Shown one piece after another: positions 7,262 through 53,573 of a stretch of DNA of 64,000 nt. The notes under the pieces were generated by a model, which worked only from the letters and a program-made list of their open reading frames with translations, did not search any database and was not told the DNA's origin. A program made the translations under genes and the position numbers. Where the stretch lies: assembly GCF_000764305.2 (NCBI RefSeq), contig NW_025938085.1, positions 429,403 through 493,402 of the forward strand, read 5' to 3'. Origin of the DNA: Hyalella azteca (taxonomy: Eukaryota > Arthropoda > Malacostraca > Amphipoda > Hyalellidae). Position 1 is the stretch's first letter. The number at the start of each line of letters is the position of its first letter.

Positions 7262-10200
7262 CTGTCGTCAGAGAGAGCAGTGATTACTCTTGCGCCGGCT
7301 GTGGCTGCAGGCGGACGTGTGCTGATGCGGCCCGTTTACAACTTACGCTCGTGTACAAATTTGATAACCTCGTTTTTGATAACTACGTCGCAAATGTTCA
7401 TAAGCAAGTTCTTTTGACTAAGAGGACTACGCTTTGAGGATCTACCGACGTTGAATGAACGACGTTGAACAAACTGTGCCAAATATTACTGCAGGTATGC
7501 GTGCGTCACACGCCGGAAAAGGCGACCCCCAAACGCCACATAATTCCGAGGGACAGACGGATCCCTGTCTCTTATACACATCTAGATGTGTATAAGAGAC
7601 AGTTATATCCCTGGCAGAAATGCGCCAAGTCTGGATCCGGACTATTAGAACTCGTTCCGTTTATACCCCGTAGCATATACCCTTCTCCTCCCCATATTGG
7701 CCACCCTTACTCCCCTTATCCTGGCAGTGCAAGGACCTGTACTCCCCTTGTCCTGGCAGTGCAAGGACCTGTACTCCCCTTATCCTGGCAGTGCAAGGAC
7801 CTGTACTCCCCTTGTCCTGGCAGTGCAAGGACCTGTACTCCCCTTATCCTGGCAGTGCAAGGACCTGTACTCCCCTTATCCTGGCAGTGCAAGGACCTGT
7901 ACTACTGCATCAAGGAGGCCATGGAGCGGGCCGCCCGTCGGGGAGTGGGGGCGCTGCCGGGGCTGGAGCTCGGGGGAGAGTTCCCCGTACAGGACATGCG
8001 CACTGGGGAGGGGCTGTCTCTTATACACATCTAGATGTGTATAAGAGACAGCAACAGCATCGTGCATCAGGTGGCCCAAATGAGGGCGGATGAACGATAA
8101 TCAGAGGCGGCGATCCATCGTGGCCTGGGACTGCTGTGTCCCAAACAAATACTAAGGATAAGGAATGCCATGGCTGGAGCGGGCGTGTCGCCACACCGGG
8201 TTTTTATTGCTACTCACGAGCTTGCTTGACGTAAACTACGTCGACGCAAGTGTGTTTTTGACTAGGAGGACTATATAGCGAGTATTCGTTTTCTCGCTAC
8301 ATTCAGCTTTGAGCTGACAGTAGACGTGCATCACTGTTATTAGACCCAAGCTGAATCTGGTTGCTACTGACGGCGCCGTTAGCTTACTCGGCGAAGCGAC
8401 TGCTCGGCCTGTGGTCATTCGTTGCAGCCCTTGATCCATCCGTCTATGAGAGAGTAGATTTACTCATCGTGACGTCCCCCACGCCTCGCATGTCTTGTCT
8501 TGGATGCCGTGCTGGCCGAAATAAGCGTCCTGCTGCCGCCTATCAAGCAGTGCTCGACAACGGTGAGTTCGTCATCACTGGCAATAGGCCGTTGCTACGG
8601 CGGCAATCATTTGCGCTGAACTCTACGTACCGTTACCTGTCGTCCGTTATGTCTTACGCGATAAGCCGCAGTCGTCCCGACTATGTCGACCTGACTATGT
8701 CGGCCTGACTCATGGTTGGCACTATCAGTCAACAATCTCGTGCAACTCTACAATAACAAGCTGACCCGTGCTCTCGATGACCTCATTCCTAAGGTCATCA
8801 GCTCAATGCATCAAAAACCGACTTTATTTGATTTGCGACTGCTCGGCGCCAGCATCAGCTTCTAGGAAACCCTGTTCGCGTAGGCAACGAGTTCGTCTTG
8901 CCTGCGTCTTCGGTTTGCAACCTCGGCATTCTGCTGGACTTGGAACTTTCTATGAACACAATCACACTGCCAAAGTCACCACCGCTTGTTTCGGCACTCA
9001 GCAACTAATACGTAGCGTCAGCCGCTGTGTCTCGAGGCCCTCGTTGTGGCACTCGTTCTGACCAGATTGGACTATGGTAAAGCAACACTGTATGGACTTC
9101 CGACCACGGCACTAAATAAACTGCAATCCGTAATGAACGCTGCTGCGCGACTCGTGTGCAATAAGCGAAAATTCGACCACGCGACGCCGATATTTCAGGA
9201 TCTTCACTGGCTGAGCATGCAGCAGCGCACGCAGTTCAAGGTCGCTGTTCTGACGTTCTGATTCCTTCCCGGTCAGGCGCCTCCTTTTCTCACGGAATGT
9301 CTGCAGCGCGTGTCGGATCAGTCTTCTAGAAGACGACCACGTTCGTCATCAGCAGTGAACCTCGTCGTTCCATCTACACGTCTAACTACCGTCGGCGACA
9401 GAGCGTTTCTGGTGGCCGCCGCCAGAACCCTAAAAACAACCATGGAACAGTCTGCATCGTTCCATAACATCGGCTCCTTCGTTGCAGGTGTTTCGTCGAC
9501 GCCTAAAGTCGGAACTATTTCGTAGAGCCTATGAATCAAGTGCTTAGTCATTTTTATCCATTCTCATCTTTAACTTCCATTCCATTCCATTTTTTATCGA
9601 TTCTCAGTCAATTTATTTCTCGCTTGCTATTAAACTTATGTGTAACGTCCCCACGAAGTACGTTTGAGCCTGACGCCACGATAAGTGTTTCGTAGAATAA
9701 TAATAATAAACTGGGCAACTCCGTCAATCTTAGAGAAAGTCCGATAAATGTATCATAATGTCCCGATTAAGCCATCATGTGGCCCTCCTCCTATGAAAGT
9801 ATACGCCGGTTTGTACGGACGGGCGAAGAGGACTCTCAGCATAGAGATTTTGGCCCGAGCCTCCATGACCACCAAGATGAGCAGGGTCCTGCCTAGTTCC
9901 TCACATCCGATCGGCTACAGGGAAATCCCTACACGCTTACGGCGAGGCGCTCAGCAATCGCCAACTGCTGTCATGCCGGAGACCCTTTACAATTAACTTT
10001 TCGCCTGCCCTGCCCTACCCTCCCCTCCACCCTCAGGCGGTGAGGGCGCCCCTTAATGTCATTGCTCTTCTCTCAACTCCTCCTCTTCTCTCAACTCCCA
10101 CCTGATCCACTACCTGAGCCATACCCTACGTGCGCATGGGACAACAGCCTGACACAAAATTACAATATAAAAAATTTTCTTGTTTACCTTCACTTTGCAT

Positions 10201-13200
10201 AGAATGCAGTGGAAGTTCAACTAAAACCATGAGCATTTTAAGTTTAAGGTAGTATTCTTGATTTCTCTAGGCCACTGGAAGAGCCATGTATTATTAAGGT
10301 AATCAACCCAAACCCACTTGCCTTCCTTCCTGACCCACTTTGTTCTGCTTCCTGACTCACCTTATCATCCTCTCATGAACTACCTTACCATCTATCCTGA
10401 TCATTTCTTACTGCTCCCTGGCCCCACTTTGTCCTGCCCTGCAACCCACCTTGCCCTCCCTCCTGACGAGGCAGGTCAGCAGCTGCGGTATCCAGGCGAG
10501 CCACTGCAGCGCAGGCACGGCGTTGCCGTACTTGTCGATCGCGTCGGTGAGTTGCGTGCCGCTCACGGGCTCGAAACTCAGCAGCCAGAACACCTTCGCT
10601 ATGTACTTGCGAGCCTTCAATTCATTGTCGCATCTGCGGGACACGTCACACGGTCAGTAACCCTATTAACCTCAAATATTGATTGCGTTGAATCTGCAAG
10701 TTTAGCTGTTAGAAAATATTAGTGAAATATCCCCAGCAGAATATCAGTTTAAAAATGCAATGATAATAACCCTATGATCATGAGAAAAAAATTATCAAAA
10801 CCCTAATTTACATAAAAATGCATGCAAGCTTCATAATTCTAGCCGCACATAGGCGTGCGCACCAGACAGCGTGTAGCAACAGCTTGGGCCCAGGTTCGAT
10901 TACCGCGTGGAAAATTATTAAAAGACAGCGCATCAGCGACTCACCGAGCAGCATGCAGGAAGCAGATGATTGCCTGAGCGGCGGCGTTCAGGTTGCTGGT
11001 GTCCCTCGAGAAGCCGACTTCTATGAAGTCGCCCCAAAGCGACCAACCTTTGAGTAACAAGTCGTGGAACTGTACGCTCGAACTGAAGGCTTTGTTGGCC
11101 TCATCCGCACGACCTGCAAACCAATTAACACATTTAACAATAGCTGCAGGTATTGCTCGCTCGAATGAGATACCTTCCTAGTTAATTACTCGCCAGAATG
11201 ACACACGATGTAATTGGACGATGAAACTTCTAAATCATCAGACTAAGGAGCTATAATATTTAAGGATTAGAGTTACTCTATTATATTACACCATCAAGTG
11301 AAGTGGTAATTAGGATGGTGAGCAAGAGAATTGCTTCGTAATTTCGTTTGCAAAATCAACGCCATTTTTCCACCCTAAATCAGAACGGCTGCATTAGTAG
11401 GAGAGGTTTCCTATAGCTTTTGTCGCAAGTCAATCCTGCTGTGACATGGCATTAGTTCAGCGTCCCTGCTTACTAATGCTTAGCCAACGCACTTCAATTG
11501 TTTCATGATGGCCATACAAGGGAATATGGCAAAATGACCACAGCGCATTTGGATGAAGATACTCATAGCTACTAAATTCATCACAGAGGAACTAGTTTTA
11601 GTACTAGTTTACCACAGATTTATCAACATAATAACACCACAAATATTTCTCATGCTCATGAAAAACTGGCACATTTGCATTGAACTATAAAATATAATTG
11701 TATAGATCACCCCATTTCTCATGCAACAATAGAGGCATTTTACATCCAAAAATAAAATACGGATGGAGCAAAGCAAGTAAGGAAACCATAGAGGCTCGTT
11801 GCAACCTGATTTAATCATGGGTAATTCTGACTTTAGTTTATATTTTAATAATAAACATTGCTTACGTAAAGTTTCGATGAAGGGCTGAGGGGTGTCAAGC
11901 AATTGTAAGCAGGATGAGAACATGACCTCAAAGTTGGGGTAGAAAACCGTGAGGGCCAGTTTGTTTATGGTTTGGAATGCTGAGGGTATGGAAAGGACTG
12001 ACTCTTGTGGAACTTGAAACTGTCGCGGCGTCCCTTGGTATAGGCTTATGTGTGCGTGACATCTGCCTATATCAAGACCCTAAAATTTGCGCCTAAGAGT
12101 TGTCCTATACTGCGGTGACCGTCACTCCAGTACGGTCTGGATCCGGCCGTCGGACGGCCGCAACGGCTCCGGCCGCTGGACGGCGGTTCGCAAAATAACG
12201 GCTGCGCGAAACGTCGAGTCATTCATACCACTACGACTCCGATATAACGTCAAAAATCTACGTGTAACGGCCATAATTTCGCCATATTTGTACGGTCATC
12301 AAGACAATACGATCACAGTCATCATCAGTAGCAGTACGGTCACGATCACCAACAGCAGAAGTGCGGCAATGAGCTTGGTGTAACACCAAGGCCTATGAAG
12401 ACTACACCAATAGTCGGAAGTACGGTTGTTATTTAAATTCTACGGTTGTGACCGGTCGTGAGACATCAATCTAAGCGCGGAGATTATGGCTAAGAAGACA
12501 ACGTGACTGTGAAAGGCAACAGCGAGGAGGCGAGGCTACAGCTGCGGTACGGCCGCACACTCGTGCAAGAAGTACGGTCGTTTACGACAGTCGTATACTC
12601 AACGGAACTGCAACGAGTCAACGCTTCTGGTAAAAGTAGATTTCACTGATGATTGTGTTCGGATCACCCTTTTTCTGTGCTAGAGATTTTTGTTAGCGTA
12701 GGATGTGACTTAAATTTTCCAATTTAATATTAAATGCGCCAGCGTTTCATTGCAATCTTCTCTCTGTAGGATTTTTGCCGTAATTTTTTTAGATGAGAAC
12801 TTATAAATGCGAATACTCCAAGTAAAGCCCAAGACGCTAGGGCCGTAGCCTGCCTAAATTAAAGCAATTGCAATTAATGACTAATTAAAGCAATTCCAAT
12901 GACCAATTAAACTTACCGAGGTGCGACAGGAAGAGGCCCTTCAGCGCGTAGAACTCTGACGTCATTTCCTTGGTGAAGAATTTCAAGTTTGTGGACTCGA
13001 TGACCTCCAGACCCTGCAACTCCAACACGAGCAAACAGTTCATCAGCAACCACCAGTGACGTAACAATAACTTCAAAATCACCAAACAAAATAAAGTATA
13101 GCACTGAATTAGGAACGATTTTTTTTGCGTTCAATCCTACTCTTCATGCAAGTCGGACGTTATCAAGTAATTTTGTGATGAGTATCTATTGTTATATATC

Positions 13201-16200
13201 AATATGCAGCGCACAAGCTTAATCAAGTTAAAAAAAGTACCTCTTGCAGTTCGGTTTTGCCCATGTTGTTGGCAACAGCCATGTGCAGATAACACTTGAC
13301 TTGCTGCCGGATCTTCTGGAAGCAGTCGACGATGGGGACGGAAGGTATGGAATGGATACGTGAGAGGGATTCAAGGCAGACGTTCGTCGAGTTGTGCTTG
13401 CGGGCGATTTTGCCGAAGTGAATGATCGCCTGAGCGGAGGCGTGCACCCCTAGCATGCTGTTGTTCTGCTGCAAACCAACACTCGGTTAGACCTACACGA
13501 CAATAAAGAGTCAATTCGTAATCTTTATTACAAAATTGAAACAATTTTTCCAAGAGAAGTTCAAGAGGAACCATTTAAAATTGTATCCTAACAATTCAAC
13601 ATTGCTATAGCATCTGCATGAAATTACTTTCAAAACTTGCCGTTTTGACGAGGTTGCTATTATATATCTATGTGTTCTATATTACAATGATCAAAACATG
13701 CTACTTACCCGTAATAACTACTCTTAATTAACCTGTTTTATAAATTTCCCAGTGGCACAGGATAAACGCCAACAACGCTAAAGGATTAATTATAGCTGAG
13801 GAATATGATTGCGTTGCGCAAGTACGATAAAATTGATGCACCTGTCCAGTCTCGCCGGCGTCGGTATAGTGGGTGACGATGAACTGGTAGTGCTGCTGTC
13901 GCCACGTGAAAATGTCCGACCAGTGACTGAGGTCGTCGGCAATGACAGGCAGGCGATTGCGCCACGTCTTTACAATTGCCTTCATGTCTTGTAAACTGCT
14001 TGACCGTCCTTGTAGTAGACCCTGATGAATCTGCCATGCTTCCTGTAGCTCCATTACCTACAACAAACATCAACAGAGCTTCTCACCACGAAAGATAATT
14101 TCCGACAAGAATCCGAGCGGTCTCGGTCCAGATGTTGAAACCGTCCAATACGCACTCGAAATTATGATTTCCAAAATATACACCACTATATTTTTGTACA
14201 TTACGCTTGTCCTTACCATTGAATTCATTACTATTTCCGTAACTGAACAGCTATAAATAGCAGTTGCCAACTCCTCAGGAGCTACAGCGATGCATATACA
14301 TGACAATCAAGTAACGTACGAGTAAAGAAGAGATCAGTGGAAAAGTTTTATATGACGTCGCGCAGTTCGAACGTCGACATTACTCAAGGAGCGCACTGCA
14401 TTGCATTTCTTTGCTTAGAAATTGTAAAGCTCACTCCTAAACAAGTCGTAAATCCTCAGGTGAAATGATGGATGAACAAATTTGAATAAGCATGGAAGAG
14501 CATGATTATTGATAGCTCCGATAATCGAGCATTGATAGCTCCGATTATTGAGAATTATTGTTGATGCTTCAGATTGAATAGTAATAATAGAGCAATATTG
14601 TGAATAGCTTTGGAAATTATAAACACTTCTTCAAAGACCAGCTCACCATAGCAGGCCGTACACACGCCCTGCTACATCCAGTCAATGCACTCAATATCTC
14701 ACAGAAGATAAATGTATTTATGCAGAGGTAGTCAGGCAATGACTTAATGCAAGATGTTCGCAATGTATTCCTGTATATGCACTATAATAATGAAGAATAT
14801 CCAACTATATTTGCAGTCGTTTCTAGAGAATCTTTTCTAGAAAAAGTTATGTCTAACGTTACCTGCTTCGCATTTCTTGAAAAATTAAAAAGAAATCTTT
14901 ATTGCGCACGATATTTAAGACTTGAATGTTCAGACTTGAAACGCCTAGCATCATATCGAACCCGGTGCAAGTCTAGTAGCTATTTCAAACTATCGTCAGT
15001 TGATAAAAGATCCGGTCGAAGGACCTGTTTTTAGATCTCCTGTGGACAAGTCACGAAAAGTAGTACAAGAATCGGTGACAGGCCACATCATGCCTACTCT
15101 TCAGCGCCAACATCACTTTTTAGCGCATTTTCTCATTTATTGAAAAAATGCACTATTGTGCTCGCCATATCCGTCCGTCCCTCCGTCTGTCTGTCCGACT
15201 GTCCGTCCGTCTGTCCGTGACCTCAAGTTTTCGTCGACGAGAAAATGCGCTCTCTGTCAGCACTGCAGTGAGTACTGAGTTATATTTTTTATGTTATGTT
15301 AAGTGTACAAAAGTAACATTCGGCATTAGAGTTGCCACCTGTTGCGCCGCCTGCAGGAAGGGTAAGTGGATGTGGGACACGATGGGCGGCAGGCGCTTCC
15401 ACTCTCGTATGCAGAGCGCCGAGGTCACGTCCACGATCTTGTCTACGGTCGCAGGAGTCTGCTCCTCGCCGTAGCATATTGCCAGATATCCTTTGTACAG
15501 GTTCACTTTCCATTGGTATTCTCTGCAATAAAAATAGTACAAAGCATTTTAGTATTTGTACAGGTTCACTTTCCATTGGTATACTCTGCAATAAAAATAG
15601 TAAAAAGCGTTTTAGTATTATGACAGGTTCACTTTCCATTGGTATTCTCTGCAATAAAAATAGTACAAAGCATTATAGTATTTGTACAGGTTCACTTTCC
15701 ATTGGTATTCTCTGCAATAAAAATAGTAAAAAGCGTTTTAGTATAAGTACAAGTTCATCTTCCATTGATATACTCTGTCATCGAAATAGTTCAGCGCATT
15801 ATGTCGTGTGTAGAGGAGGTTCACCCTCCATTGTTTTTCTCTAAATTGGAATAGTGTAATCATTAGGGTATATGCTTTGAACATACGGTTCAGCTTCCAT
15901 TGATATTCTGTGAAATTAACATAGCGTGAGGATATTTTAATTACTGGGTATCATTTATATAAACATAGAAGCGTCACGTTATACGACGAAAACGAATTAA
16001 AACGTTCAAATGTCTAATGGAAAATGCGTTGTCTATGCAGAATAATCAATACCTTCAAATGTCTTTAGGAAATATCTAATTTGAGCCAAACTTTTCGGAA
16101 GCCTTAACTTCAGAAGCAAGTGTGATGCATGCCAGTGAGTCAAACCTCGCTGTAATACAGGGCGATTCATTGAAACTTTCTGATTTGAAAGCTCAATAAA

Positions 16201-19200
16201 AAAATGAACTAGTGAAGATATCATTTAAATATTAATAATTAATTTTATTGAAAAAGGCATTACCAGAATTTTTATATTACTAACTTTTAAAGATTACATC
16301 GGACAACTGACGGCCTCCATTGCCAATGCATTCAGTTAGTCGACTTTTGAAGTTGCATTCAACTCGCTGAAGCATATTGACGGGTCTGGACAGCCATTGT
16401 AAACAATTGATAATTGTTAATGATTGATAGTAAACGGCATAATTGGCCCTTATTGCTTTGAGGAAAACGAACGCGCAGTAACGGTGACTGCTGTTCTGTA
16501 CACGCAAACGATTAACGCCGTTTTTTGCCGTTTGATTCCAATAGGATGGAGCCATCGCCCACATAGCGCGATGTTCAACGTATTTTAGGAGAAAACTCTT
16601 CAGAGTGCCTTATCTTCATGAGAGGTGACCTTCTTTGGTCTGCACGATCCCCCGGTTTGGCACCACGTGATTTTATTTATGGGTTATCTACAATTACTTG
16701 AATTGTTTACAATGACTGTTCACGAACCCTACCTCATTTGAAGAACAACATACGCCAAGCCATCGCCAACATACCCGTCAATTTGCTTCTGCGAGTTGAA
16801 CGGAACTTCAAAAATCTGCTAACTGAATGCATTGACAATGGGGCCGTCATTTGTCCGATGTCATCTTTAAAACTGAGTGATAGAAAAATGATATTTTATG
16901 TAATATTATGATATGTAATGATATTTTTACTACTTATTTTTTAATGAGCTTTCAGATCATGCAGTTTGCGAATTATCCCACGGAGGGAGATTTCTCATCA
17001 CATAAAAATTCAATGAAACTTGAGGGACGAGGTGCAGGTAACGCGCCACGCAGCACAGGACGTACCTCTGGAAGAGGCGAGGGCCCTTCTTCAGAGCAGC
17101 ACAGGACGTACCTCGGGCAGGAGGGGAGAGCCCTTCTTCAAGGCATCACAGGACGTACCTCGGGCAGGAGGGGAAGGCCTTCTTCAGAGCAGCACAGGAC
17201 GTACCTCGGGCAGGAGGGGAAGGCCTTCTTCAGAGCAGCACAGGACGTACCTCGGGCAGGAGGGGAAAGCCCTTCTTCAGAGCAGCACAAGACGTACCTC
17301 GGGCAGGAGGGGAGAGCCCTTCTTCAGAGCAGCACAGGACGTACCTCGGGCAGGAGGCGAGGGCCCTTCTTCAAGGCATCACAGGACGTACCTCGGGTAG
17401 GAGGCGCGCTCCATGGAAGCGAGGGCGTCCTTCATGGCAGGCCAGTCGGGCACTCGCCATGCGGTGTCCAGCACCAACTGCGGCAAGCCGTTGGCAGGGT
17501 CGGAGCCGAACTCCCGCACGATGTCCCACTGGTTGAGCTCCTTCGTGCACCTGCAGACCCAGAGGGGTGATCACGGCGGGCCAGCATTTGCGACGAGTAT
17601 TCGACGTAATGTCATATTAATAATAAACGTAATAATAAAAAAACTAACATCACTATAAACTAACTGACTTCACAATAAACGGATTACCGTTGCAATAAAT
17701 GAACCAACGTCATAGTGAACGAACTAACGCAACTATAAAGGACATAAATCGTTAGCTACCCGTCCGGGCAATATTGTCAGTTAAGCAATGACCGTCATTT
17801 CGAGGAGAAGACTTCTTAGTTTCACCTAGTGTATAATATAATTGAAGTTAGCACTGCTGCAAAAAAGTCAAAACTCTGCTTAATAATGGTGATTAATTTG
17901 CTAAACAACATTGAAAAGAGTGAATAGAAATAAATTTTTAGAGGCCTAAGGACCTGAAATGAAATTTTTTTATTTAGACTTGCAGATGAGAGACGAATAG
18001 TTGAAATTCAAATTGTCAGCCCAGCACTTGGCTATGGAAAGCTTACGCCACGAGACAGGAATAAGCTCGTAAGTCAGCAACACACTCCTAGCGTGGTGCA
18101 GCCGCTTTAAGCCGAGCCAGCTCGAAGCTCTGACCTGAGCCAGCACGAAGCTCTGACCTGAGCCAGCATGAAGCTCTGACCTGAGCCAACATGAAGCTCT
18201 GACCTGAGCCAGCACGAAGCTCTGACCTGAGCCAGCACGAAGCTCTGACCTGAGCCAGCACGAAGCTCTGACCTGAGCCAGCACGAAGCTCTGACCTGAG
18301 CCAGCACGAAGCTCTGACCTGAGCCAGCACGAAGCTCTGACCTGAGCCAGCACGAAGCTCTGACCTGAGCCAGCACGAAGCTCTGACCTGAGCCAGCACG
18401 AAGCTCTGACCTGAGCCAGCACGAAGCTCTGACCTGAGCCAGCACGAAGCTCTGACCTGAGCCAGCACGAAGCTCTGACCTGAGCCAGCACGAAGCTCTG
18501 ACCTGAGCCAGCACGAAGCTCTGACCTGAGCCAGCACGAAGCTCTGACCTGAGCCAGCACGAAGCTCTGACCTGAGCCAGCACGAAGCTCTGACCTGAGC
18601 CAGCACGAAGCTCTGACCTGAGCCAGCACGAAGCTCTGACCTGAGCCAGCACGAAGCTCTGACCTGAGCCAGCACGAAGCTCTGACCTGAGCCAGCNCGT
18701 AAACATCTTAAGGGCCTGCAACACATAAACATTTTAAGGGCCTGCAACACGTAAACATTCTAAGGGCCTGCAACACGTAAACATCTTAAGGGCCTGCAAC
18801 ACGTAAAAGCTTCAACATCAGCTTTACGCACGCTCTAACCCATTCACTTTACATCCAATGGCCATCCACAGCAGAAATTTTCCAGTCATACCGACTTCTA
18901 GATACAAAAACCGACTGAAACATAGAAACATTAACAAGGAAAAACAGGAAAAGTGCGAAAATAAATAATTATAAATAATCGAAGAAAACCAACTGAATCT
19001 TGTGCAACAACTTCTAAGTATTTTCCCTAAAAAATTTCAATGTTAAACTCCTTTCCATGCCTGTTAATGCCTGGACGAGATCTGAAAAGAGAATTTTCTG
19101 ACCCCTGATCCCAGCATAAAGCTGATGTCGAACTCACCAGTTTGGTCTCTGGGTAATGGGCGTGCGTCTGCCACAGCCCCGCCCAGAGGTCCTCCTCCTT

Positions 19201-22200
19201 CATCAGCGAGTACAGGTCGTGCAGTCCAAACAGGGCTTCCTGCTCGCGTTTAGGGCAGCGCATTATTCCACATGCAGAAATGGCTTGCATGTGAGCTAAT
19301 TTAACATGGATATTATCGGGACAGGTTGACACCGACGCACATTTCAAAAGGATTCTGATAAAAAATATTGATTTATTTAAATGCCTGGATTAATATTAAT
19401 AGGCTTGTAAAATGCGCTTAGAACGGATCATAATTCTATTACAAACCTGCTGCAGGGAGAGGATGGGGTCCAAATACTCGGAGTCGCGCTTGATGGCAGA
19501 GAAGGGCACCTGTCCTGCCTGCATCAGGGCCTCGAGCTGCAGGCACATGCGGTGCCACAGGTTGTGGCCCTTACCGAGGTACTGCAGGAGGAAGGGACGC
19601 ATTGGCACGCTCGGCTGGCACAGACAAAGAGCTTCTACGAACGTTTGAATGGCAGACGGATGGCATTCTTTCTGAACGATGTGGGTACCGGACGAAACGA
19701 ACGGAGGAATTTCCTTGCTTAACGACTGCTGCTGTTTCTCACTAAGAATCTTCCAAATACGCGGGAATAATTGCTTCCAAACCCACTCAGCCAGACTTGT
19801 GTCCATATGACAGAGCTGAGCGGTTCCTGCTAAGAAGTGGCTTGTGTAAACTTCATTGGCACTTTGATAGAACTTCCATTGTGTGGAGATGAGGTTTTGC
19901 AGTTTAGCTCGCGAGTTTGGAGAAGAATTTCGTCCACCCGAGAGTGAACCCTCACCGGGAACCGTGGAAGATAATTCCATGTCAATATCTTCTTGATTAT
20001 TTTCCGTCGACGTGCTCACAGATGACGAATCCACGTCTTCTTCTTTGACGTTGGCGAGCATGGAGAAGAGGGCGCGGTCGCTGGCCTCGGCCCAGCCCAC
20101 GACGGACGTGACGCTGGGCAACATAATGTCACTGCGCGACACTTGTATGGGGATTTTATCGTGTGCTGTACTGAGCAATATTTGGATACACTGCTTGATC
20201 CAGTAGTGAGGACCGATGTTCTCCCAGTTCTGCGAGCAGACGATGTAGAGCAGGCGACTGTAAAGCCTACAAGGCATGCTATCCTGAAACACTTGCAGAA
20301 AACTAGCGCGTATTTGTGGTTGAGTGCATCTGAGACCGGCCAGAAATGCAGTCTCAAGCTTGCTCACAAGCTCAGTGTTCCTCAAATGTTCGTCACGGTA
20401 CACGAAGAGAACAAGGTTCAGGAATTGCGCCATCATTTCGTCATCCTGAGCAAAGCGCTTCTCAACGTACTGCATTAACTTGACCAGTAGGATGCTCTTC
20501 TCACGCAGACTTGGCGCCTGGTTTGACGCCGTTGGGGCGGTTGGCTTAGCACGCACCCACTCACCCACCACCTTCGTGATGGCCTTCATCACCTTCACGT
20601 CCGGGGTCTTCTCGACGAGACCCACCAGGATGTTGCCGATGAAGATCTTCCTCATGTCGACGCCCATGACACTCACTCTGTTCTTAACGAGCTCCAGCAG
20701 CACGATGAGCGCCTCTACACGATTTGCTTCCCCTAAAAACAGTTGATTTTAATTGCACACATACAGATGAAATTAAAATTTATTATTCAAAATAAGTCTT
20801 CAAAAATATGTGTCATGGAGGTATAAAGCACAGCACAACAGAAAACTATAGTAAAGCAATCCACAAATTAATACTTATCGATTGATTTTGGACATTTATG
20901 CAGAAGTAGGTATCATTCACAAAGTATAACCAGTAGCTTAGACGTACATTATTTCCAAATAAAATATAAATACACGAATTTACTAAATAACCCATGAAGT
21001 ATGTTACCGGACACCCGAAGATTGTTTAAAGATCCTCACCTGCTGCGTCAGGGCCGATCTGAGCTGGTGTGATGTGGTCCCTGGTAATTTTCTGCAGGAC
21101 CTTCATGATGGCCGTCATAAGACGGTCCAGATGCTGCGTCGAGTGTTGAGCCAGCGCCCTCATGACCATAAGGGCGGGGTACAGGGTACCCACGGCGCCT
21201 GTTGTGCCACGGTCGTGGTTGGCCAGTGCCTCCTGCACCAGCTTGGCTGCACGGGTGACAAACTCGTCCAGTTCATCAACACCGAAAGTCGTGAGCAGAG
21301 TTGACAAAAGAGGATGAAGAAGACGGATGACGCGTGGATTGGAGCAGGAGCAACATGATAGGAGTCCGCGGTAAAGACTCTTTACGGCTGCAAGCATTTG
21401 TTCCTTCTTGAGCTTCCCTACGAGGTAAGTTAGAAGCTCAAGACCGGAACAAACATTACCTAGACTGTATTGGGGAGTTTCTAGGCCCTGGAAGAGCTTA
21501 TCCAGCCAAGCAAGCTTGGGATCAGCATTGGGCCACACGACCAGGGCTCTTTTGAGCAGAAGTGAGCACCTTCTGGACAGAAGCTCGCTGGCTGTAGCTG
21601 CAGGCAGGGGCGGGGAAGCGTTGGGCAGAAGCACTGATGTGGCGCTACTAGTCTCGTGAACTTGGCACGGTAAACGAACCAGAAAGTAGACGACCGTGTC
21701 TGCATGCACGGCAGGTCGGTACTGGTCCAGCAACGTGCGTCCCTTCATGCGGGTCTCTACTGCCGGCGCCACGACGCCTGCTTTCTCGTCCGCTACTCGA
21801 CGTTCTTCCCACTTGATGCACACCTGCTCACAGACCTTCAAGTAAATCTTACGTGGATGTTTAAACCTGAAATTTAATGGCATTAACTAAGTAAATAATA
21901 ACATTTTTAAAACTAATGAATACACCAACTATTGCCGGCATATAAGAATCATAGTTTCACATGTTGGGTCGTGATCAAAAAGTTTATAAGCTCTGGAACT
22001 ACTTAATGTTCAAGTAGTTAACCTGGAACAAAATTCCTTTCGAACAAAAACGAGATAAAATACAATTATGAGATGCAATGAATGCGCTGGTTAGAAGCAT
22101 CACCTCTGCGAGGTCAACAGCCAGCCTCTTCTGGTCCATATTGGCAGTGATGGAGAAGCCAAGCTTGTGCATGGCGCTGGTGATGTGGTGGACGAGGTGT

Positions 22201-25200
22201 TGGCGCACCGGCTGGTACACGTCCACATGGCGCACCACCAGCTGAAGGATGTGCACCAGTTGGCCGATGCTGTGGCCTTCTTCTACCAAGATCTTACGAG
22301 TCCAGTGGGTCAGCATTGTGTTGCCTGCAATAGCAAACATTGCATGAAATCACGTGTCCACTGCGTCAACGAACATTGTTTAGCCAGCATTAGCAAACGC
22401 CTGTATGCTTTTAAAAGGTCAAATGAGCAAGCAGTTCGTAGCTTGCACATTGCTCTTAACATAACGTTTCTCTGACAGAGATAAAAATAAACGACGAAAC
22501 AATGTTGGCGACATTAAAAATCAGACGACACACAAGCAACTGGACATTAAATATCAAATAATTATTGATATTATTAAATATTATTTAAATATATTTAAAT
22601 TTTTATTTATATATTATTTAATAATGTTAAATTTTAAACAGAATTTACGAAAAATAATTAGGCAAATTCATAATTCCTAAAGCAGTGATCAATAGACACA
22701 GAATGCATACCGTCTTCCATTCTAGCAGGCATGGCGGGAGTAAGTATCTCCAAGGCTTGTCTGACGACAGTTCTGGCCTCCATGGCGTGCGCCTTGAGGA
22801 GGCTGTGGAAAACTTGCAAGACGATGCGTCTGTTGATGGCGAACTTGGCGATGATATGCGAGAGCAGCAAATGCCCGTGATACTTGGTGGCTGGGTCGAC
22901 GCAGTTCTTCGCTAGCAAGCACGGCCATGTGAAGGTCATGAGACGACGTAACTTGTCTCCTTGTCTCATCTTCTCACCCTGACGGTGGCTGCTGTCATCG
23001 TGGAAATAGTTAGAAGCTTTCTCCACCAAAAGACATGACAACTGTAATAACAGGATGCGTAGCGCGTCGATGAAGTGCCCGTTGTTGTCTGGGTTCATGA
23101 TTTGGTTGATGAAGACCGATACGATGTTATCGGGGGAATCAATGCAGGGAGTTTCGCTATTGCTGATCAGCAGATCGCGTTCGCCACGCTCCAAGCTCAC
23201 AGAGAAGCTGGGGATGATGATGTACTGCAGAACGCAGGCCTTGAGTTCTTGAACAACTGAGCCATCCACAAACAGTTGCACAAACTCAAAGAACGCTCGA
23301 CGCTTCCACTCGACAGCATAAGTTTTCGCCACAGTTTCCTCAAGGAACTCACGGAGGAATTGAAATTCGGGAATGTAGCGTCCAATGAACGCTTTGACCA
23401 ATTGGAACAAAAGGGGAATATCGTCACTGTGGTTTTTGTAGTAGATCAGCAAGATAGAGACGACCATTCGAGGAATCTTCCAGTGGCTGAATTCAACGGT
23501 ATCGCACATTATGTGCTTCTCGTGGAAGTCTTCAGAGTTCCAGAGGTCACGGATACTCTGCAGGAGTGCGGGCTGCGTGTCAAGCCAGGCGTTGTTGTGG
23601 CGAGCGGCCAGCAGGGTCATTCTGATGGCCAGGAAATGTTTCTGAGCGCTGAACGCCGGTGTCACGTCAGTTTCTGACATCAAAGAGAGCAGCCTATCAC
23701 CCAATAGCTCCATCTGACTCCGCAGTGGAGCGGAAATCGAGTGCCGAATAATGTATTCCAAGTAGCGCCCACACTGTTCATTGCCAGCATGAGCTGGGGA
23801 GAGGAAGAGTTCGAGAGTTTCGACGGGATGGAGGACGAGGAAATTGACGAGTGGCTCACGTAGTGGGCTTCCAGCCTCAATGAGAAGTGCACGCTCAGCC
23901 GCCATCACTTTAGTAGCCATGCGCTCAATGGAGCGCGGTGAAGTTTGCGGCATGCGGTGGAACAGGTCTAGGATGCTGGCCGCAAGTTGCAGCTCGGCGG
24001 TAGATCGGGGATTGAGGGCGGCACTGTCGAGAAGATTGCAGCAGTACTGCAAGAGTTCGTTACACACGAATTCTGTGAAGAGATTAGGGAACAGACGTGA
24101 GATGTATGAAATCTTGGAAACCATTTGAGGAGAAAGACGAGTCATGCTGTTGCAGATCTGGGACACTAGAGGGCGGACCACAGCTGTGATGGAGTCGGAG
24201 GGCGCTCGGCCGTCCAAAAACTTCTGGAGGCCCTCGAAAGCAGCTTCTTGAATTTCCGTGTTGTTGCTTGTAATTAGCGCTTTGTAGATGGAAGTGAAGA
24301 TCTTGTCTTGTGAGACATGAATGTAGTGACATGTAGAAAGCGCGCGGAGAGCAGATTTTTTAAGCGGTATCAAGCTGCTCACGTTTTTGTAGCAAGAATA
24401 CTTTCTGAGATGCACATCGTCAAAATCAACGAGATACAATAGCTCATTGAGGAAGACTTTGTGCTCTTGAACATTAGTATCGAGTGTGAACAGCCTGGGC
24501 TCGAGAGTCGTGCAGAAAGTATTACCTTCCATGAGACCAATCTGGACATTGGCAGGCTGATGACGCAGGAGGTGTTTCTTCGGAGGGATCATGTCAGCCA
24601 AGACTTTCTTGTGAGGCAACATGACCTCCGTTACGCCGCGACCAGTAAGTCTCCCTAAAAGGTGAAGAGATTGCATAGTCTGTTCCCTAACGATAGTGTT
24701 CGATGAGGTAACTTGAAGGACAAGTTCTTGAGTGACCTCGTGCAGAGACTTCTCTTGCATGACCAGCATCTCTTGAGTGTCATGTGGAGGTTGAAGAGGA
24801 GAAGCGCACTGCAGTAGTATTTTCTCTAAGTTTGTCTTGGCCATGTCGACTGCGCCAGTGGAAACTTCACCAGACAAGTCCATCATGACGTACATGAGCG
24901 CCCTCAAGAAGGCAAACTGGTGCTGCAAGACCCACTTGAGTGGCATGTTCTCACACAGGATTTTTATGGCGAGACAACCGCCGTGTTTAGCATACCAAGC
25001 TCGTTCGTAGCACAGCTGGCACATCTTCACGGCAAGATACTCCATCAGTGGCAGTCGAGAGGCTCGTTCTTTGCTTCCAAGGATGTCACTAGCGGCGCTG
25101 ATGATCAACATCAGAGTCACATGACCAGGTTTGCAAAGTTCCTTTTCTTCATGTCCCATAACGACAGCGAGAGCGTCAATCAGCACGTACGGATCCATGC

Positions 25201-28200
25201 CCTGAATCTTGTTCTGGACATTGAATGGTGCCGCCTGCTGGACGACGGCGACCATCGTATAGTGTCGTACCACGGACACGACAGTTCGCAGCACCTGCTT
25301 ACTCAGTTCCTTGATGGCTGCCGTGACGAGCATCGCAGTCAACGCCATCTGGTGAACTCGGCGAGCTGCCTCGTCACGGCACTTGTATGGTTCAGAAGCT
25401 GTGATCTCTCCATCTTTGAAGCTTGGGTGGTTAATTAGCTTCAATAAAAGGCCTCGATCTTGGTCCTTGAGCATAGATCCTATGAGGAAGCAGCGCACAA
25501 CTTCCCAGCATTGCTGTCGGTACCAGGGTTCCGTCGTGGACGTTTTCAATGCATTGAACGCGACTTCAATGATCCTTTCAACAGGAAGTAATATAGGCAT
25601 TTTGTGTTCAGCGAACTGGACATTGATGCATGTACTCGGGATTTCTTGTTCTTCGTAGGTCAGTTTTTGCGGCTCAATCATCATTTTTCTGTTTCCGCCT
25701 CCAAACTTGCCGAGAACGCGGAAGGCAATTTGTGCAGTGTTGTCGTTGGGGTTGCGCAGGGTTTTCCACAAAGCCTGCATGAGCTCAGCTCTAACGGGCT
25801 GGATGTGTTCGTACAAGAAATCAGGTTGAAGATTGTCGACACAAAGTTCGAGTGTTCGCAGGCCCTGGGAGATAAGCATGTGGGAGCCGTTGAGAGCAGA
25901 CACAAGCGGATCCATTAACATGGGCAGATATGGCAGCAAGGAAGAGAGACGGACGGGTACAGTCAGGCACAGCTCCACGAAAAGATCCTTCATGTGCTGT
26001 TTGTGCAGACCGCTCTGCAGGCTATTGAGGCCTTGCAATAATGTAGGCAATAGAGGAAGAAACTCTTGGTATAGCAAATCGTGACTACCTCCCCCAATAG
26101 ACCGAAAGAGCGCTCGCAGAAGCAGGAAGTAATTGTACGGTTCTTTCGCACTCATAGCCAACTCCATGGATTTGTTGACAATCTGATGCAAATGAGGCTT
26201 GAGCATTTGTTCATTTGGAGTAGCGAAGAGCGATACACTTCCGAACACCAGCTTAAAGAGTTTTAAGTAGAGGCTTGACCGTTCCACGGGCTTCCCCATC
26301 TCTTCCATGTGCTTGAGGAGGTACTCCACCAGAATAGTCGCGAACACAGGCGATGGAACAGGATTGGCAAGAAACGTGTTCGCTACCCCTTGGAGAGCAT
26401 TATTCAGGTGGATCCTGTCAACAACGTAGTCGATGGTGGTAGAGAATATTTCTCTAAAAGTCGCTGGATTAAGTAACGTAAAGACGCCCGCGAAATGTTC
26501 GAGAACATCTTTTTCTTCTTTGGATCGGCCAGCGGTCGTGACTGCCGCGCCCCGCTGGGGGGAGGGACCATGGGCGGCCCCCTGTGTGGTACCAGGGGTG
26601 TTGATGGCGTAAATGTCCAGAGCTTGCATCGCCCACTTAACAAACCTGATGAATATCAGGACCTCTTTCGGTTCAAAAATTTTCTCGCCATTAGAATGTT
26701 TCTCGGCGCAGAAACGCGAATTCGTATACCCCCATGTGATGGTCTTGACGCCTGAGACCAAAGTCTTGACGAGGGCTTTGCAATCAGGCACACTATAATT
26801 TTGAGTGACATTTGGAGGTGCGCCAAGCTTCTGGATTTGATCTTTTTCTTTAGCGTTCTCTGTATCTGAGGAAGTGCAAGAAGTGGCACCAGGTCCGGCT
26901 GAAGCACCCAAAGGAATCTTTGAGTCCTTAACATCTTCTTGTTTGATTTCCTGGCCAGCGTCCAAGCCATTGCTTGAGCTCGACCCTGGCGTGCTGCTGG
27001 GCGCAGAAGTAGCAGAGAAAGCTGACGGTGTCGCACCAACGGCTTCTTTTTCTGCGTGCTTCTGTTTCAAGTAAGGAACCTGCAGCTGAGCTATGGACTT
27101 GAACTTATCAACGAAAACCTGCAACATGCGGATGAGCAAGTCTTTAGGAAGCATCGGGTCGTGGCCATCATCATGGTTGTAGGTCCTGATGCCATCCACC
27201 AGGTTCAATAATAACTTGCAAGACATAGTCTGGATGCTCGTAGGTAGTGTCTCATCGTGGATGTTTTTCGAAAAAAGATGTACTGCGCGATTCAACGCTT
27301 GTAAATTCAGCTTCGTCCTAAAAAAAACCAGCACCATGTTATATTTGTGATTCGTACAGTAATGACAAAATATGGTTACATGAATGACACACGAATATCG
27401 TCATACCAAATAGACAAGAATTTTAAAGCAGTAAACAAACCAATCGTAAAATGAACGAAAGCAGAGAAAGCTCATCGATACTCATCTACATGTATATACC
27501 CTGGGACGTCACACACACATATACTCAACACTCCTTTCACGCCACTAAACTTCTGGTACGTAGAAATCGCGATCACAAGAAGTTCGCTAAGAAATATTCT
27601 ACTTCTACATTTTCTCAATGATTTTCTTTTCTTCTCAATGATTTTCTTTTCTTCTCAATGATTTTCATTTCTTCTCAAGCAAATAGCATGAATGTCTTCT
27701 CAAGCAAATAGCATGAATTTATTCGTAAGCAAATAGCATGAATTTCTTTCTGCTCAAGCAAATAGCAAGAAGAATGAGCATGCAGACTGCCGCACCTGAC
27801 GTGGTGAACCAGATCAGCTAGCGTAGAATATGCCAGCGGTCGCAGCGTCTCGTGAGCGGTCCACCCGCTTCCGAACAACAGCTTTTCATCGAACAAGCGA
27901 TCGATGTGAGGCACGAACTCTGGCGGCAGGGTTAGAAACTTGGATCAGTATTACATATTATGCCTCACGGGTAGATGGAAAATGAAATGTTCATCAAAAA
28001 CGTAATTAATATAAAGATGTGAAAGATTTTTTTACCTTTTAGACAAAACATTGAAAAAGTTTGCTTCATAGCTTGAAAACAATAATTTGGTTGGACGTAT
28101 AGTAACTATTACAAAAAAAAAATACATGATAAGTGGCGATGAGCCGTTCAGATACTGGATATTGTACCAGAACCACTGTGACTTATCATAACCAAATTCG

Positions 28201-37023: not shown

Positions 37024-37025
37024 TA

Positions 37026-37594: not shown

Positions 37595-37602
37595 ATTAAC
37601 CA

Positions 37603-43049: not shown

Positions 43050-43115
43050 TTAAATTTTCTTCTTTTTTGAGGTTCTTGTAGTCTTATTTTGTCTCTTTGG
43101 AAGAGATTGCAGTTG

Positions 43116-43905: not shown

Positions 43906-45359
43906 GTTCTTGTAGTCTTATTTTGTCTCTTTGGAAGAGATTGCAGTTGCTCTGAGTTGCTGGGTTTACTTATTTGATGGTTCAATTTTGGGTTGCTATT
44001 GTTTTTCTTGCCCCCTTCCATGCAAATGTTTGAGGGGCCAGAACTGGTAGGCAAACAAACAGCTGATGAGGTTGCCTCAATTGTAGTTGGTTCTGCAGCA
44101 ATGGTGGACTCAGCATGAAGTTCCCCCAGCAGAGCTTCTGCCACCTCATTGCCAAAGTGTTTCCTGGTCGCACTGATGGTTAGCAGTTCTTTCCCTTTTT
44201 TTGTTTTCTTTTGATAAATCTGTTAGGACAATTTCTTTCAGAAACTTGGAAAGTTAGATGCTGAGTTTCTGGATTTCACTTCTGATTAAGGTTGTAAGGG
44301 TGGCTGTTGCCTCTTCCATTGAGGGCGTTTCCGCAACTGTATTGGTGGGACCATGATTTGAGGCTTGTGTTGCACTTGCCTTGGTCACTTGGCTATAGGT
44401 GTTCTCTACTGATGGTATGGTGCTTGGATAGGGTAAACTGCTTTGATAGGAGCCTTGAGATTTGTGCACTTCTGCTTGAATGGTATTGATCTGGAGTAGG
44501 CTTTTCTGAGGCATTGCCAGCTGAGATGCTTGGCCACTTGGACTGTTTTGGAGAGGTCTTCCTGAACTGAGGCTGTGGTGTACCGAGTTGGTTTGCTTTA
44601 GGGCTAAATCATACGACATTCCGCTTCTTGTCAATGCATCTATGGCCTTGGCTTGCATGTTATATTGGCAGTCTCGGTGGCTGGCAATGTGTGGCCCTCC
44701 ACAGTTTGCGCACTTGTATGTTGTTGACTTGCACACATCTTTAGAATGATTCCCGGCACAGAGCAGACGTTCAGGGGCAGTGCACCCACTTGAAAGGTGT
44801 CTATGTCGCTGGCACCTGTAGCATCTGAGGGGTGGTGGGTTGAAATCTCTCACTCTGTAAGAAATAAAACCAAAAATGGCTTTTTCTGGTATTTGTTTGC
44901 CTTCAAAATCCAGCTTGAGGACTAAGGAGTCTTCTTTTGATGCTCCAGAAAATTTTGAGAGTCTGGAGATCCTGATTATCTTACAAGCTTGTCTTTGCAT
45001 ATTTAAAAGGTCATTGAGGTCAACATCATGCCCAACAGGACCAATGACTCCTGAGCAGGTGTTTTCTAAATCAGATGATGGTCTATAGCATTGAACTTGC
45101 CATTGTCCAAAATTCATGGTAGATAGCAAGGTTTTTATTGCCTCTTCTTCATTGGGATTGAATTCCACGGCCAAAATGTTACCCCTTTTGTTGATCCGCA
45201 CGTCTTTGACAGAAGAATCTTGAATTATTTTCTTCAATTCTTTAGCAACCAAGACTGGGTTTAGGGAAATTTTATTTGCGTACAAAGATGTTTGCTTGAT
45301 CAGTACTGTATTTTGATTTCCAGTTGACTGAGAAGTTAAATTTGAGGGAAAGGCTTTAA

Positions 45360-45891
45360 CCCTTTCACAGGTAAGTTACCATATCTGATCACTTGAAATT
45401 GCGTCACAAAAAGCCTCACCACGGCTTCCTGTTTGTTTTTGAGGCATCCTTATAATGCCTCAGCCAATCACTAATTATCTGACCATCGTTCTATCTATAG
45501 CATCACCAACTGCAAAGTCCACAAATTGAAATACGAGCATTTAAATGAAGGTTTTGACTCGGACAATGGAACTGACGCTCTTTCCGCATTTTCTTCAAAA
45601 GGTAGAAGTATCGATATATATATCTATTTGTTATGGCAACTTGATTAAATTTAATTAAATTAAATTTTTATGTTTCTAATTTTTCATTTGCATAAACTGA
45701 ATTTTAATTATAAACAAAAATTTTGTGTACTGATCGCATTTATTGAATTCTTCAAGTGCGATTTAAACCTTCAATAGGCAAACTTTGCAAAAATTCATGG
45801 GAATAAATATATTGTATAATACTACTTACTTTCTTGAAATGGTTTCTGAAATTTTAATTTCTGGATATTTCAATGCTTGCCCGCTAAAGGG
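45360..45891. mobile_element. piggyBac-like MITE, TTAA duplication
   Basis: The element begins ccctttcacagg and ends cccgctaaaggg. It is bounded by TTAA at 45356-45359 and 45892-45895. CCCTTT ends with TTAA target duplication are the piggyBac signature. It is 532 bp and non-coding, and it splits the LINE ORF1. Confidence 0.88.
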
Positions 45892-51689: not shown

Positions 51690-51890
51690 GTCCACGTGCA
51701 GGCATTACGCCACACTGCCACCGTCCCCGTGCAGGCATTACGCCACACTGCCACCGTCAGGCATTACGCCACACTGCCACCGTCCACATGCAGGCATTAC
51801 GCCACACTGCCACCGTCCACGTGCAGGCATTACGCCACACTGCCACCGTCCACGTGCAGGCATTACGCCACACTGCCACCGTCCACGGCG
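51690..51890. repeat. 33-bp minisatellite, about six units
   Basis: Units of gcaggcattacgccacactg + ccaccgtccacgt, one of them shortened. Since 33 is divisible by three, every frame shows an 11-residue periodicity, so the open frames here are not evidence of coding. Confidence 0.9.
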
Positions 51891-52173: not shown

Positions 52174-53573
52174 TTACTCAATGGCAAGAAGCTCGAAGCT
52201 ACTGCTGCTGCTGCCACAGCTGTCACAGTCATCAAGACTTCTCGATACAGAAGGAATTCTGCGCTCACAATCCAAACCTTCCTTAATCAGCTCAACTATG
52301 GATTTATCAAAAGGCTTCCTACTAGTGTCACTTGATAATCCGAGCGTGTTACAACAATGATTTTGCATATTACCTTCTGAACTCTGACAACAATCTTTCC
52401 AGTGAAGTGAATTTGATGCTAAACTTAGTGATGAATCTTCCACTGCATTCCTTATTTGCTCTTGTATAGTAAGCTGGCTTTCAGCAGAGCCAGCAGCACC
52501 TATTTGCTGCTTTGCTGTCAAGTTTGTGGTCTCATTTATAGATAGCGACGCCATAGACTGAATAACTTCATGCGTTTTTGTTCCATTTTTTTCAGATGGA
52601 CGCTTGGACTTTCTCAGACTTGAGTGACGAACAAGTTTTTGAGGTAGACTGGCATTCCTCAGCAGGAACAACTGAAATAAATAAGAGGAGTTAGACATGC
52701 AATTAACCTAATAGTCCAAATACCTTCACGGCAAACCTCTAAATACCTGAACCTCCACATACATTATCAGCATGAACAATCAAATTTAGAAACAAACGTT
52801 GCTAAATTGAAAAAAGTGAAACATCAATTTCAGTGTTTCCAAGTTGCACACTGCAAGTTAATCAGTCAGAAAGTGATATATTGAAAAAGCAAGAAGAAAT
52901 TGAACAAGATTTATCATCATTTCCACAACATGCAAGTTCAATCATGAAATATAATTTAAAAGTAGTTACAACGCTGAAAGTTTAACATCACAAATATTAT
53001 TAGTTAAAAGTTTAAACAATACTTGAAGAATTTGGTGAGTATTGAGACAAAGTCTTACTTGAGCATGTGTTGCTGGTGAGTCTCTGTTGAGACAAAGTCT
53101 TACTTGAGCATGTGTTGCTGGTGAGTCTCTGTTAAGGCTGCTGATGCGGATCATGTTGTGCTGAGCATGAAGCTGATCCCTCTCACAGTCCTGACAGAGA
53201 TCAGTGTTGGGACAGGTCAAGCATCTGTACCTGAATCCCACCACAGGGCCATCACAGCTGTCACAAAGCACATGAGGATGCACCAAGTCATCAAATTCAT
53301 CAACCTTGTTTCCAGTAACTTCAGATATAAGAGGATTGATTTCAGCTGGGGTGATTTTTTCAGCATCCTGTTTAAGGCAAGATTCAGTAACATGTGAGCT
53401 GTAACCACGTGTTGAACTTTCTGATGAGCAAAGCCACGGGGAGGACATTTTGCTTTGCCGAGATGAAGTTGAGTATCTTGGGTCACAGTATTTAGTAGTG
53501 CCATTTCTCTGACTTCTCTCACGATCTCTTGCATCTTGGATGAAATTTATCAAAGGTTTCCCAAAGTACACAT
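52174..53573 (-). CDS. p62/SQSTM1-like ZZ zinc-finger gene, last two exons
   Basis: The upstream exon (53104-53573) has an acceptor ccag|ATGTGTACTT. It encodes YFGKPLINFIQDARDRERSQ, a Ser-rich linker, and a ZZ zinc finger: HPHVLCDSCDGPVVGFRYRC, LTCPNTDLCQDCE, then H..H (HAQHNM). It ends at ATHAQ|gtaagac. The final exon (52174-52671) has an acceptor atttcag|TTGTTC and encodes LRNASLPQKLVRH through FDKSIVELIKEGL to the C-terminus SSSSSFELLAIE. In p62 the ZZ finger follows a PB1 domain and precedes LC3-binding and UBA parts; it is an autophagy receptor. No PB1 exon was found in the window, and the C-terminus lacks an obvious UBA. It ends in a serine-rich FELL, which fits an LC3-interacting motif. 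Another ZZ protein (NBR1-like) is possible. Confidence 0.65.
53043..53132 (-). repeat. 45-bp tandem duplication across a splice donor of the p62-like gene
   Basis: Two 45-bp copies, each with GCTCAA|gtaagac. Boundaries lie at 53104 and 53059. The duplicated part is in frame and open, so use of the second donor would add 15 residues (VRLCLNRDSPATHAQ). Confidence 0.93.

Follow-up and report, generated by a model that had tools for sequence, protein, structure and literature searches.

The locus considered here is a 64-kb window of the Hyalella azteca genome (the whole stretch of DNA analysed, which is the final 64 kb of contig C2148, NW_025938085.1, in a 519-Mb assembly of 4890 contigs). Tandem arrays lie in this window across exon-intron junctions of a gene for TRRAP/Nipped-A and of a gene for a ZZ-finger protein, and the question is whether splice junctions themselves are the target of a duplicating process or are struck as a part of the DNA beside exons. 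A first-pass annotation had listed seven such arrays in three genes, with units joining the end of an exon to the start of an intron or the reverse, and had proposed a process starting exactly at the junctions. According to the analysis below, the signal is exon proximity. On balance, the arrays are probably tandem duplications (minisatellites) mostly private to single loci, which are enriched beside exons. Tandem arrays as a whole make up about 7-8% of the DNA sampled from this genome.

Tandem arrays at the splice junctions of the window

Arrays were detected with Tandem Repeats Finder (TRF), by which six of the seven annotated arrays were recovered with the units assigned to them (Table 1). 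The seventh, at 10312-10465, is decayed and was not called by TRF at a score of 50 or of 30. The units in the window look unrelated to each other by eye, in agreement with the first pass. Of the seven arrays, six coincide with a known or an inferred junction of a gene in the window; the assignment to local genes stands for TRRAP and the ZZ-finger gene, whereas the array at 7696-7901 was rejected as an array of a window gene, being a misplaced piece of MADD.

The TRRAP model consists of 29 exons placed by splice signals and was read as two blocks (exons 1-12 and 14-30), both of which are stop-free (2725 and 1042 aa, respectively). The 1042-aa block can be aligned over its full length to human TRRAP. 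The nearest relative (P0001) is 68% identical, and named vertebrates and arthropods are about 60% identical. The junctions concerned are the exon 14 donor (17392|17391), the exon 15 acceptor (15522) and the exon 20 donor (10450|10449).

The arrays with units of 47 and 63 bp occupy opposite ends of one TRRAP intron. The 47-bp unit comprises about 15 nt of exon and 32 nt of intron, and its outermost copy is the exon 14 donor; all eight donor copies score 9.1 with a matrix derived from the other TRRAP donors (range 4.4-10.8). The 63-bp unit comprises 31 nt of exon, encoding protein which is aligned to human TRRAP, and 32 nt of intron. Its last copy is the exon 15 acceptor. Four strong acceptors are present (TTGCAG|AGA or AGT; scores 13.4, 13.4, 12.1 and 13.4, other TRRAP acceptors 0.3-16.2), in addition to two decayed copies reaching 15869. 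The sequence shows that the junctions themselves seeded the junction arrays: the exon-derived part of a unit encodes the protein of the exon, and the outermost copy is the actual exon edge. Diverged copies and a higher-order alternation of unit variants are found within the arrays.

Two more arrays flank a single N in the assembly, the place from which TRRAP exon 13 is missing. Some 50 residues are lost there, because the alignment with human TRRAP stops at residue 2756 in exon 12 and resumes at 2809 in exon 14; across this stretch, P0001 reads AVTFEQHGF...LWEDRWIR. Exon 13 had no convincing match within the window, and when the whole assembly was searched in six frames it was likewise not found, exon 14 alone being returned. 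When the end of the 23-bp unit (TGG CTC AG|GTCAGA) is joined to exon 14 (G TGC ACG), the residues W-L-R-C result, where P0001 has W-I-R-C. The 26-bp unit (TTGCAG|GCC CTT) gives A-L in phase with exon 12, where P0001 has A-V. We infer from these phases that the two arrays would be the two edges of exon 13. A reading of 18114-18807 as mere splice-like arrays in mid-intron was rejected, since the exon is missing exactly there. The 23-bp array is 99% identical internally and is therefore young, recently homogenised or misassembled.

The array at exon 20 is the weakest junction case: the self-similarity of this junction window is 18 and the maximum of exon windows is 16, yet about 10% of the intron windows reach 16. 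The ZZ-finger gene (52174-53664; Pfam ZZ, E 1.5e-11), which we take to be p62-like, has a donor in phase with the next exon, and its 45-bp pair is in frame. Strong arrays which start shortly past the donors of TRRAP exons 5, 7 and 4, each excluding the donor itself, had been overlooked in the first pass.

Table 1. Arrays, TRRAP features and assembly faults, with positions in the window unless a contig or locus is named (copies as determined by TRF where TRF is the basis)
Feature	Position	Strand	Unit and copies	Basis
Array on TRRAP exon 14 donor, 8 donor copies GAG|GTACGT	17050..17404	-	47 bp x7.6	TRF, model
Array on TRRAP exon 15 acceptor	15492..15777	-	63 bp x4.5	TRF, model
Decayed units at TRRAP exon 20 donor (AAG|GTGGGT)	10312..10465	-	22 bp, ~7 units	weak; by eye
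Array, 25 donor copies CAG|GTCAGA, inferred exon 13 donor	18114..18696	-	23 bp x25.3	TRF, phase
Array, 4 acceptor copies GTTGCAG|GCC, inferred exon 13 acceptor	18698..18807	-	26 bp x4.2	TRF, phase
Single N (assembly join) in place of TRRAP exon 13 (~50 residues)	18697	.		alignment
Perfect array on ZZ-finger gene donor CAA|GTAAGA	53042..53133	-	45 bp x2.0	TRF, sequence
Array starting 4 nt past TRRAP exon 5 donor, donor excluded	29263..29393	-	22 bp x6	TRF
Arrays starting 24 nt past TRRAP exon 7 donor, donor excluded	27612..27771	-	20 and 25 bp	TRF
Array 46 nt past TRRAP exon 4 donor, donor excluded	29997..30120	-	45 bp x2.8	TRF
Carboxylesterase exon 1 donor, spanned	C2148, 200 kb		30 bp x19	TRF, Pfam-supported predicted exon
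Carboxylesterase exon 2 donor, spanned	C2148, 200 kb		84 bp x4.3	TRF, Pfam-supported predicted exon
Carboxylesterase exon 6 donor, spanned	C2148, 200 kb		56 bp, ~4 copies	Pfam-supported predicted exon
Guanine deaminase acceptor, spanned	C2148, 200 kb		71 bp x2.5	TRF, Pfam-supported predicted exon
TRRAP/Nipped-A gene as modelled, exons 1-12 and 14-30	1060..33138	-		3' end incomplete in model
TRRAP exon 12, last residues HYPETKL	19138..19239	-		splice-signal model
TRRAP exon 14 (CTKELNQW...)	17392..17550	-		model, human TRRAP alignment
TRRAP exon 15	15339..15522	-		model, human TRRAP alignment
TRRAP exon 20	10450..10633	-		model, human TRRAP alignment
Misplaced 411-bp MADD piece (false insertion) flanked by two adapters; holds the acceptor array 7708-7903	7565..8051	+	32 bp x6.1	adapters, Pfam
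Adapters inspected	7565-7602; 8014-8051; C2148:271239; C2148 ~254376 (partial copy); L033 1684-1720 (MADD locus)			

The remaining observations in the window are as follows. A possible decayed 59-bp duplication over the acceptor of TRRAP exon 9 was seen at 22104-22324 and upstream (self-similarity 17). Two strong arrays are at no known junction, one beyond the stop codon of the ZZ-finger gene (51675-51887, 33 bp x6.7) and one apparently intergenic (60403-60595, 22 bp x8.7). Rfam and tRNA scans gave 0 and 0 matches.

Distance of arrays from exon edges

The adjoining 200 kb of C2148, which had been outside the view of the first pass, were used as an independent sample. Arrays with a TRF score ≥ 100 and a period of 15-250 were considered strong. 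By this definition, 56 strong arrays are present in 264 kb, 45 of these in the new 200 kb, where they cover 7.3% of the DNA; in 40 kb from ten other contigs the coverage is 8.3%. Exons were predicted by a program trained on TRRAP, which on TRRAP itself matched 26 of 29 exons with 50 of 58 ends exact and 7 extra exons. It yielded 25 exons in the 200 kb after the removal of 7 lying mostly within arrays. For the curated test, 17 of the 25 were retained (8 outside Pfam-supported genes were excluded) and 2 were restored, the latter being shorter versions of two removed exons which pass the threshold of 24 without arrays (27.5 and 48.7). The Pfam-supported genes are a carboxylesterase, an amidohydrolase (by our reading a guanine deaminase), an Ig protein and a DHHC protein. 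One strong array was excluded as a false insertion and one was re-anchored to its exon, for which results are given both ways. The array at 162399-162609 (C2148:391801-392011), about 9 nt past the last Ig exon, is outside the tested introns and was not counted. As the null model, a seed of unit length was placed randomly in the introns of the same genes and was allowed to enter an exon; wholly exonic seeds were discarded. A version of this null matched for guanine-cytosine (GC) content was run as well.

The four unseen genes contain 11 strong arrays, of which 4 span a junction, where 0.70 would be expected (P = 0.0035), or 1.14 with GC matching (P = 0.014). Six are no more than 46 nt away from one, where the expectation is 1.32 (P = 0.0008), or 1.89 with GC matching (P = 0.0034). 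With the re-anchored array at its TRF place, 3 of 11 span (P = 0.028-0.085) and 5 of 11 are near (P = 0.006-0.021). All five certain strong arrays of TRRAP are near (P = 0.0007); spanning alone is not significant there (2/5, P = 0.09-0.14). The certain arrays of TRRAP and the unseen genes together number 16, with 6 spanning (P = 0.0007-0.0025) and 11 near (P = 2e-6 to 9e-6), and with the two inferred exon 13 arrays the values for the five genes become 8 of 18 spanning (expected 1.4-1.9, P = 5e-5) and 13 of 18 near. Spanning arrays are about 2.6-5.8-fold over random seeding, and the recurrence at junctions noticed in the first pass is borne out in genes which it had not covered. Base composition was rejected as the cause of the whole excess, since the GC-matched null keeps it. 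For uncurated predicted exons in the 200 kb, spanning is not significant (P = 0.53; 0.23-0.79), and nearness gives P = 0.009 and 0.003-0.055. Arrays cover 12-16% of the DNA that lies no farther than 800 nt from an exon and 2.7% of the DNA beyond, with higher values on the donor side.

The proposal of a start exactly at the junctions fared worse, as the excess concerns arrays lying no more than about 46 nt from an exon edge. Among near arrays, spanning is not in excess (8/13 vs. 6.2-7.0 expected; share 0.48-0.54, P = 0.23-0.39). Exon sequence makes up 0.23-0.89 of the unit (mean 0.50), a distribution indistinguishable from uniform (12 arrays, Kolmogorov-Smirnov P = 0.38). Coverage of junctions by arrays is about equal to or below that of intron bases generally, and a nearby repeat is present in 4 of 57 junction windows vs. 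about 10% of the intron windows. In the unseen 200 kb, splice scoring of the unit consensus gives 18% vs. 12% for random segments and 13% for shuffled units.

Arrays at junctions were also found at the MADD locus (L033), which is not an unbiased sample because it was reached through its array. A very small MADD intron (reverse, ~750-900) consists mostly of three donor copies (33 bp, QAFLKD|GTGAGT) and two acceptor copies (28 bp); the following intron has a 24-bp x18 array from about 9 nt past the donor, plus a 32-bp acceptor array. Judged by reading frame and splice signals, the outer copies in MADD and in the ZZ-finger gene are real junctions. Array units repeat protein in MADD (QAFLKD) and in the carboxylesterase (FYVLDNRPRDQ).

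As a separate observation, an Ig-domain exon lies between the large arrays C2148:387184-387690 and 387953-388440, which are 14 nt before the acceptor and 43 nt after the donor; neither holds the junction.

Untrimmed adapters and reading frames

The array at 7696-7901 is part of a 411-bp segment between two complete mate-pair junctions (4 half-site matches; shuffles 0). The junction adapter is a 38-mer, which we take to be a Nextera product. An identical 38-mer is called a circularisation adapter in PMC7357533. Translated, the segment reads like the beginning of the C-terminal PH-like domain of MADD (PF25328, E 1.6e-4, below the curated cut-off), and its home is contig C4470 (98% identity over 185 bases). 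A search with this segment, in which simple repeats were skipped, gave two places, namely the home locus and the misplaced copy. At C4470, TRF gives the 32-bp acceptor array about 2.4 copies, and a further adapter interrupts it there. Beside the second adapter in the window, at 8052, a 109-bp stretch is repeated from the region ~39000-45375, where minus-strand open reading frames resemble, by eye, a non-long-terminal-repeat retrotransposon in pieces.

In the whole assembly, 5585 complete copies of the adapter are present, and the reversed control gave 0. For the five adapters inspected, the distances to a strong array are 0, 0, 106, 111 and 0 nt; DNA ≤ 150 nt from a strong array makes up 12% of the 264 kb and 48% of the MADD locus. 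Because the adapters inspected sit at or near arrays, array copy numbers and joins are not to be trusted. C2148:254408-254727 was rejected as an independent carboxylesterase array, being the exon 1 unit behind a mate-pair junction and hence a false insertion. The carboxylesterase exon 6 array is broken by that kind of junction and by a false copy of the exon 1 array. The concern raised with the first pass, that arrays might be assembly artefacts, is thus justified for one of the seven arrays and for the joins; adapter misjoins do not account for the diverged copies that sit at real exon edges.

The extra copies had been thought to provide reserve splice sites. This idea fails in TRRAP, because all 17 extra sites tested there (7 exon 14 donors, 5 exon 15 acceptors and 5 exon 20 donors) lead to a premature stop. 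The frame stays open in the ZZ-finger gene, in carboxylesterase exons 1 and 2 and in the MADD donor array. Units divisible by 3 number 5 of 12, vs. 4 expected. Nothing seen in the sequence points to selection in favour of reserve sites that could be used.

Proposed origin of the arrays and relation to known systems

The following origin is proposed for the junction arrays. A segment of about 22-84 bp, which by chance straddled an exon-intron junction, was duplicated in tandem, as is shown by the outermost copy being the actual exon edge, and unequal exchange or slippage would later have added copies on the intron side, as the alternating unit variants and mixed decay suggest. The exon-proximal copy would stay the working splice site and the remaining copies would be decaying decoys, a division to which the TRRAP reading frame points. 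The initiating lesions were probably staggered breaks that were filled in and end-joined; small tandem duplications have been described that arise when CST-guided Pol alpha fills in the 3' overhangs of breaks and the ends are then joined (PMC8355091). Such duplications may arise more often, or survive better, in transcribed exon-proximal DNA, and more so on the donor than on the acceptor side. Those straddling a junction would be nearly neutral while the exon-proximal copy is used and could then expand like any minisatellite. Junctions would be struck because they are within the exon-proximal zone, not through recognition.

Several points weigh against this account. Every locus but MADD is on one contig, and the TRRAP set is post hoc because it was chosen by the first pass, which does not apply to the 200 kb. 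If all 12 TRRAP arrays with a TRF score ≥ 50 are taken, 5 are near (P = 0.12) and spanning gives P = 0.30; with exon 13 placed at the N there are 14 such arrays, of which 7 are near (P = 0.021; spanning P = 0.027). The perfect two-copy repeat of the ZZ-finger gene could be an unmerged contig overlap, and untrimmed mate-pair junctions render array joins and copy numbers unreliable. In two successive introns of MADD, 3 of 4 junctions are spanned and the fourth is flanked at about 9 nt, which hints at something beyond proximity. A similar hint is that in the whole assembly the donor motif CAGGTRAGT re-occurs within 10-40 nt at 830 of 7239 sites (11.5%), vs. 276 of 6298 (4.4%) for the reversed motif (ratio 2.6), counted per copy and not per locus; 100 of the 830 represent 26 loci by our count. 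Variants of a 21-bp donor-like unit (GGTTAGTGCCCCCAGGTGAGT) are arrayed on contigs C181, C190, C455, C563 and C619. This unit is a dispersed family, unlike the private junction arrays, and a part of the pairing is therefore not private junction copying.

Among the other explanations, survivorship might hold, although we consider it less than probable: duplications would arise uniformly, deep-intron arrays would be broken by transposons and indels, and those on the exon side would be kept. It agrees with the drop in coverage past 800 nt from exons and with the excess of near and spanning arrays alike, but not easily with the 23-bp array of 25 nearly identical copies, if this is young or recently homogenised and not misassembled. 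A junction-directed process, in which breaks, R-loops or splicing intermediates on DNA initiate duplication across AG|GT, could draw on the 8 of 18 spanning arrays (two of these inferred), on the paired CAGGTRAGT sites and on the donor and acceptor copies within one tiny MADD intron. We judge it unlikely, as arrays beside junctions are in excess too and spanning is not once proximity is given; moreover, the place of the junction within the unit is indistinguishable from uniform, junctions are covered no more than bases generally, and the splice scores of the units barely exceed those of random segments.

The paired motif would also suit a sequence-driven instability, in which donor-like GGCAGGTGAG motifs, resembling G-rich minisatellite cores such as the Jeffreys core, expand wherever present. 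Donor arrays do outnumber acceptor arrays, and the GGTTAGTGCCCCCAGGTGAGT variants on several contigs are donor-like arrays that are not private; acceptor arrays (63, 71, 32 and 28 bp) and AT-rich arrays do not fit, however, and the excess persists under GC-matched placement, which makes this explanation quite unlikely. That arrays or their positions were created by gap filling with untrimmed mate-pair reads is suggested by the 5585 adapters, by the nearness of all five inspected ones to a strong array (≤ 111 nt), by the two false insertions (the MADD piece and C2148:254408-254727) and by the absence of exon 13 at a single N. As an explanation of the arrays it is very unlikely, since private substitutions and decayed copies at real junctions (units of 47, 63, 30, 84, 56 and 71 bp) do not come from the joining of identical reads. 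Locus-private duplication in exon-proximal DNA is the account which we hold to be probable.

Minisatellites at splice sites have precedents. Turri et al. are said, by the title of their 1995 report, to have found a minisatellite in IFI6 (6-16) which supplies multiple splice donor sites. In that case, a unit at an exon end reportedly repeats the donor many times, as it does here; it concerns one human gene and one unit, whereas here unrelated units multiply donors and acceptors in at least five genes of one genome. Zhuo et al. reportedly linked tandem arrays to alternatively spliced human introns in 2007, to go by the title alone. For human segmental duplications, PMC2812944 gives 162 alignments with variable repeats at exon-intron boundaries and, after manual inspection, 27 intron modifications. 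Boundary minisatellites are already in print, and the first pass, which had known of no described system with this property at this density, is not supported as regards the property itself. The minisatellites of PMC2812944 resemble ours in their place at the boundary, averaging 30-bp units and 4 copies; they concern recent paralogs with transcript-supported intron change, while our arrays are in ordinary genes and are known from DNA alone. Further sources treat an intron of a potato RNA-dependent RNA polymerase gene gained via a duplication crossing an intron-exon boundary (PMC4974935, which also cites fission yeasts, where a 24-bp segment with AGGT was duplicated multiple times), Drosophila cases of intron gain by tandem duplication (PMC2891723) and minisatellites near alternative exons of C. 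elegans (PMC4039745). In the AGGT intron-gain model of Rogers, a short tandem duplication doubles a splice site, and here too the duplicated segment carries one; unlike in that model, the copies sit within an existing intron. In the part of the open-licence literature surveyed, no report of such a density of arrays in one genome was found. Single cases are known, and the density in one genome appears unusual.

As a practical warning, an assembly with 5585 untrimmed junctions lacks at least one exon and holds a piece of one gene inside another. For biology, intron gain and the drift of splice sites have long been modelled as outcomes of tandem splice-site duplication, mostly on the strength of single cases. 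In a genome with exon edges multiplied in gene after gene, the breakpoints and ages of such duplications, the choice among identical sites and the cost of decoys would become measurable. It is doubtful that this lineage has a recurrent mutational process favouring duplication across exon-intron junctions, with multiplied donors or acceptors in a sizeable share of its genes. If it had, the genome would have been caught in the act of supplying, on a large scale, the raw material from which introns are gained and splice sites replaced.

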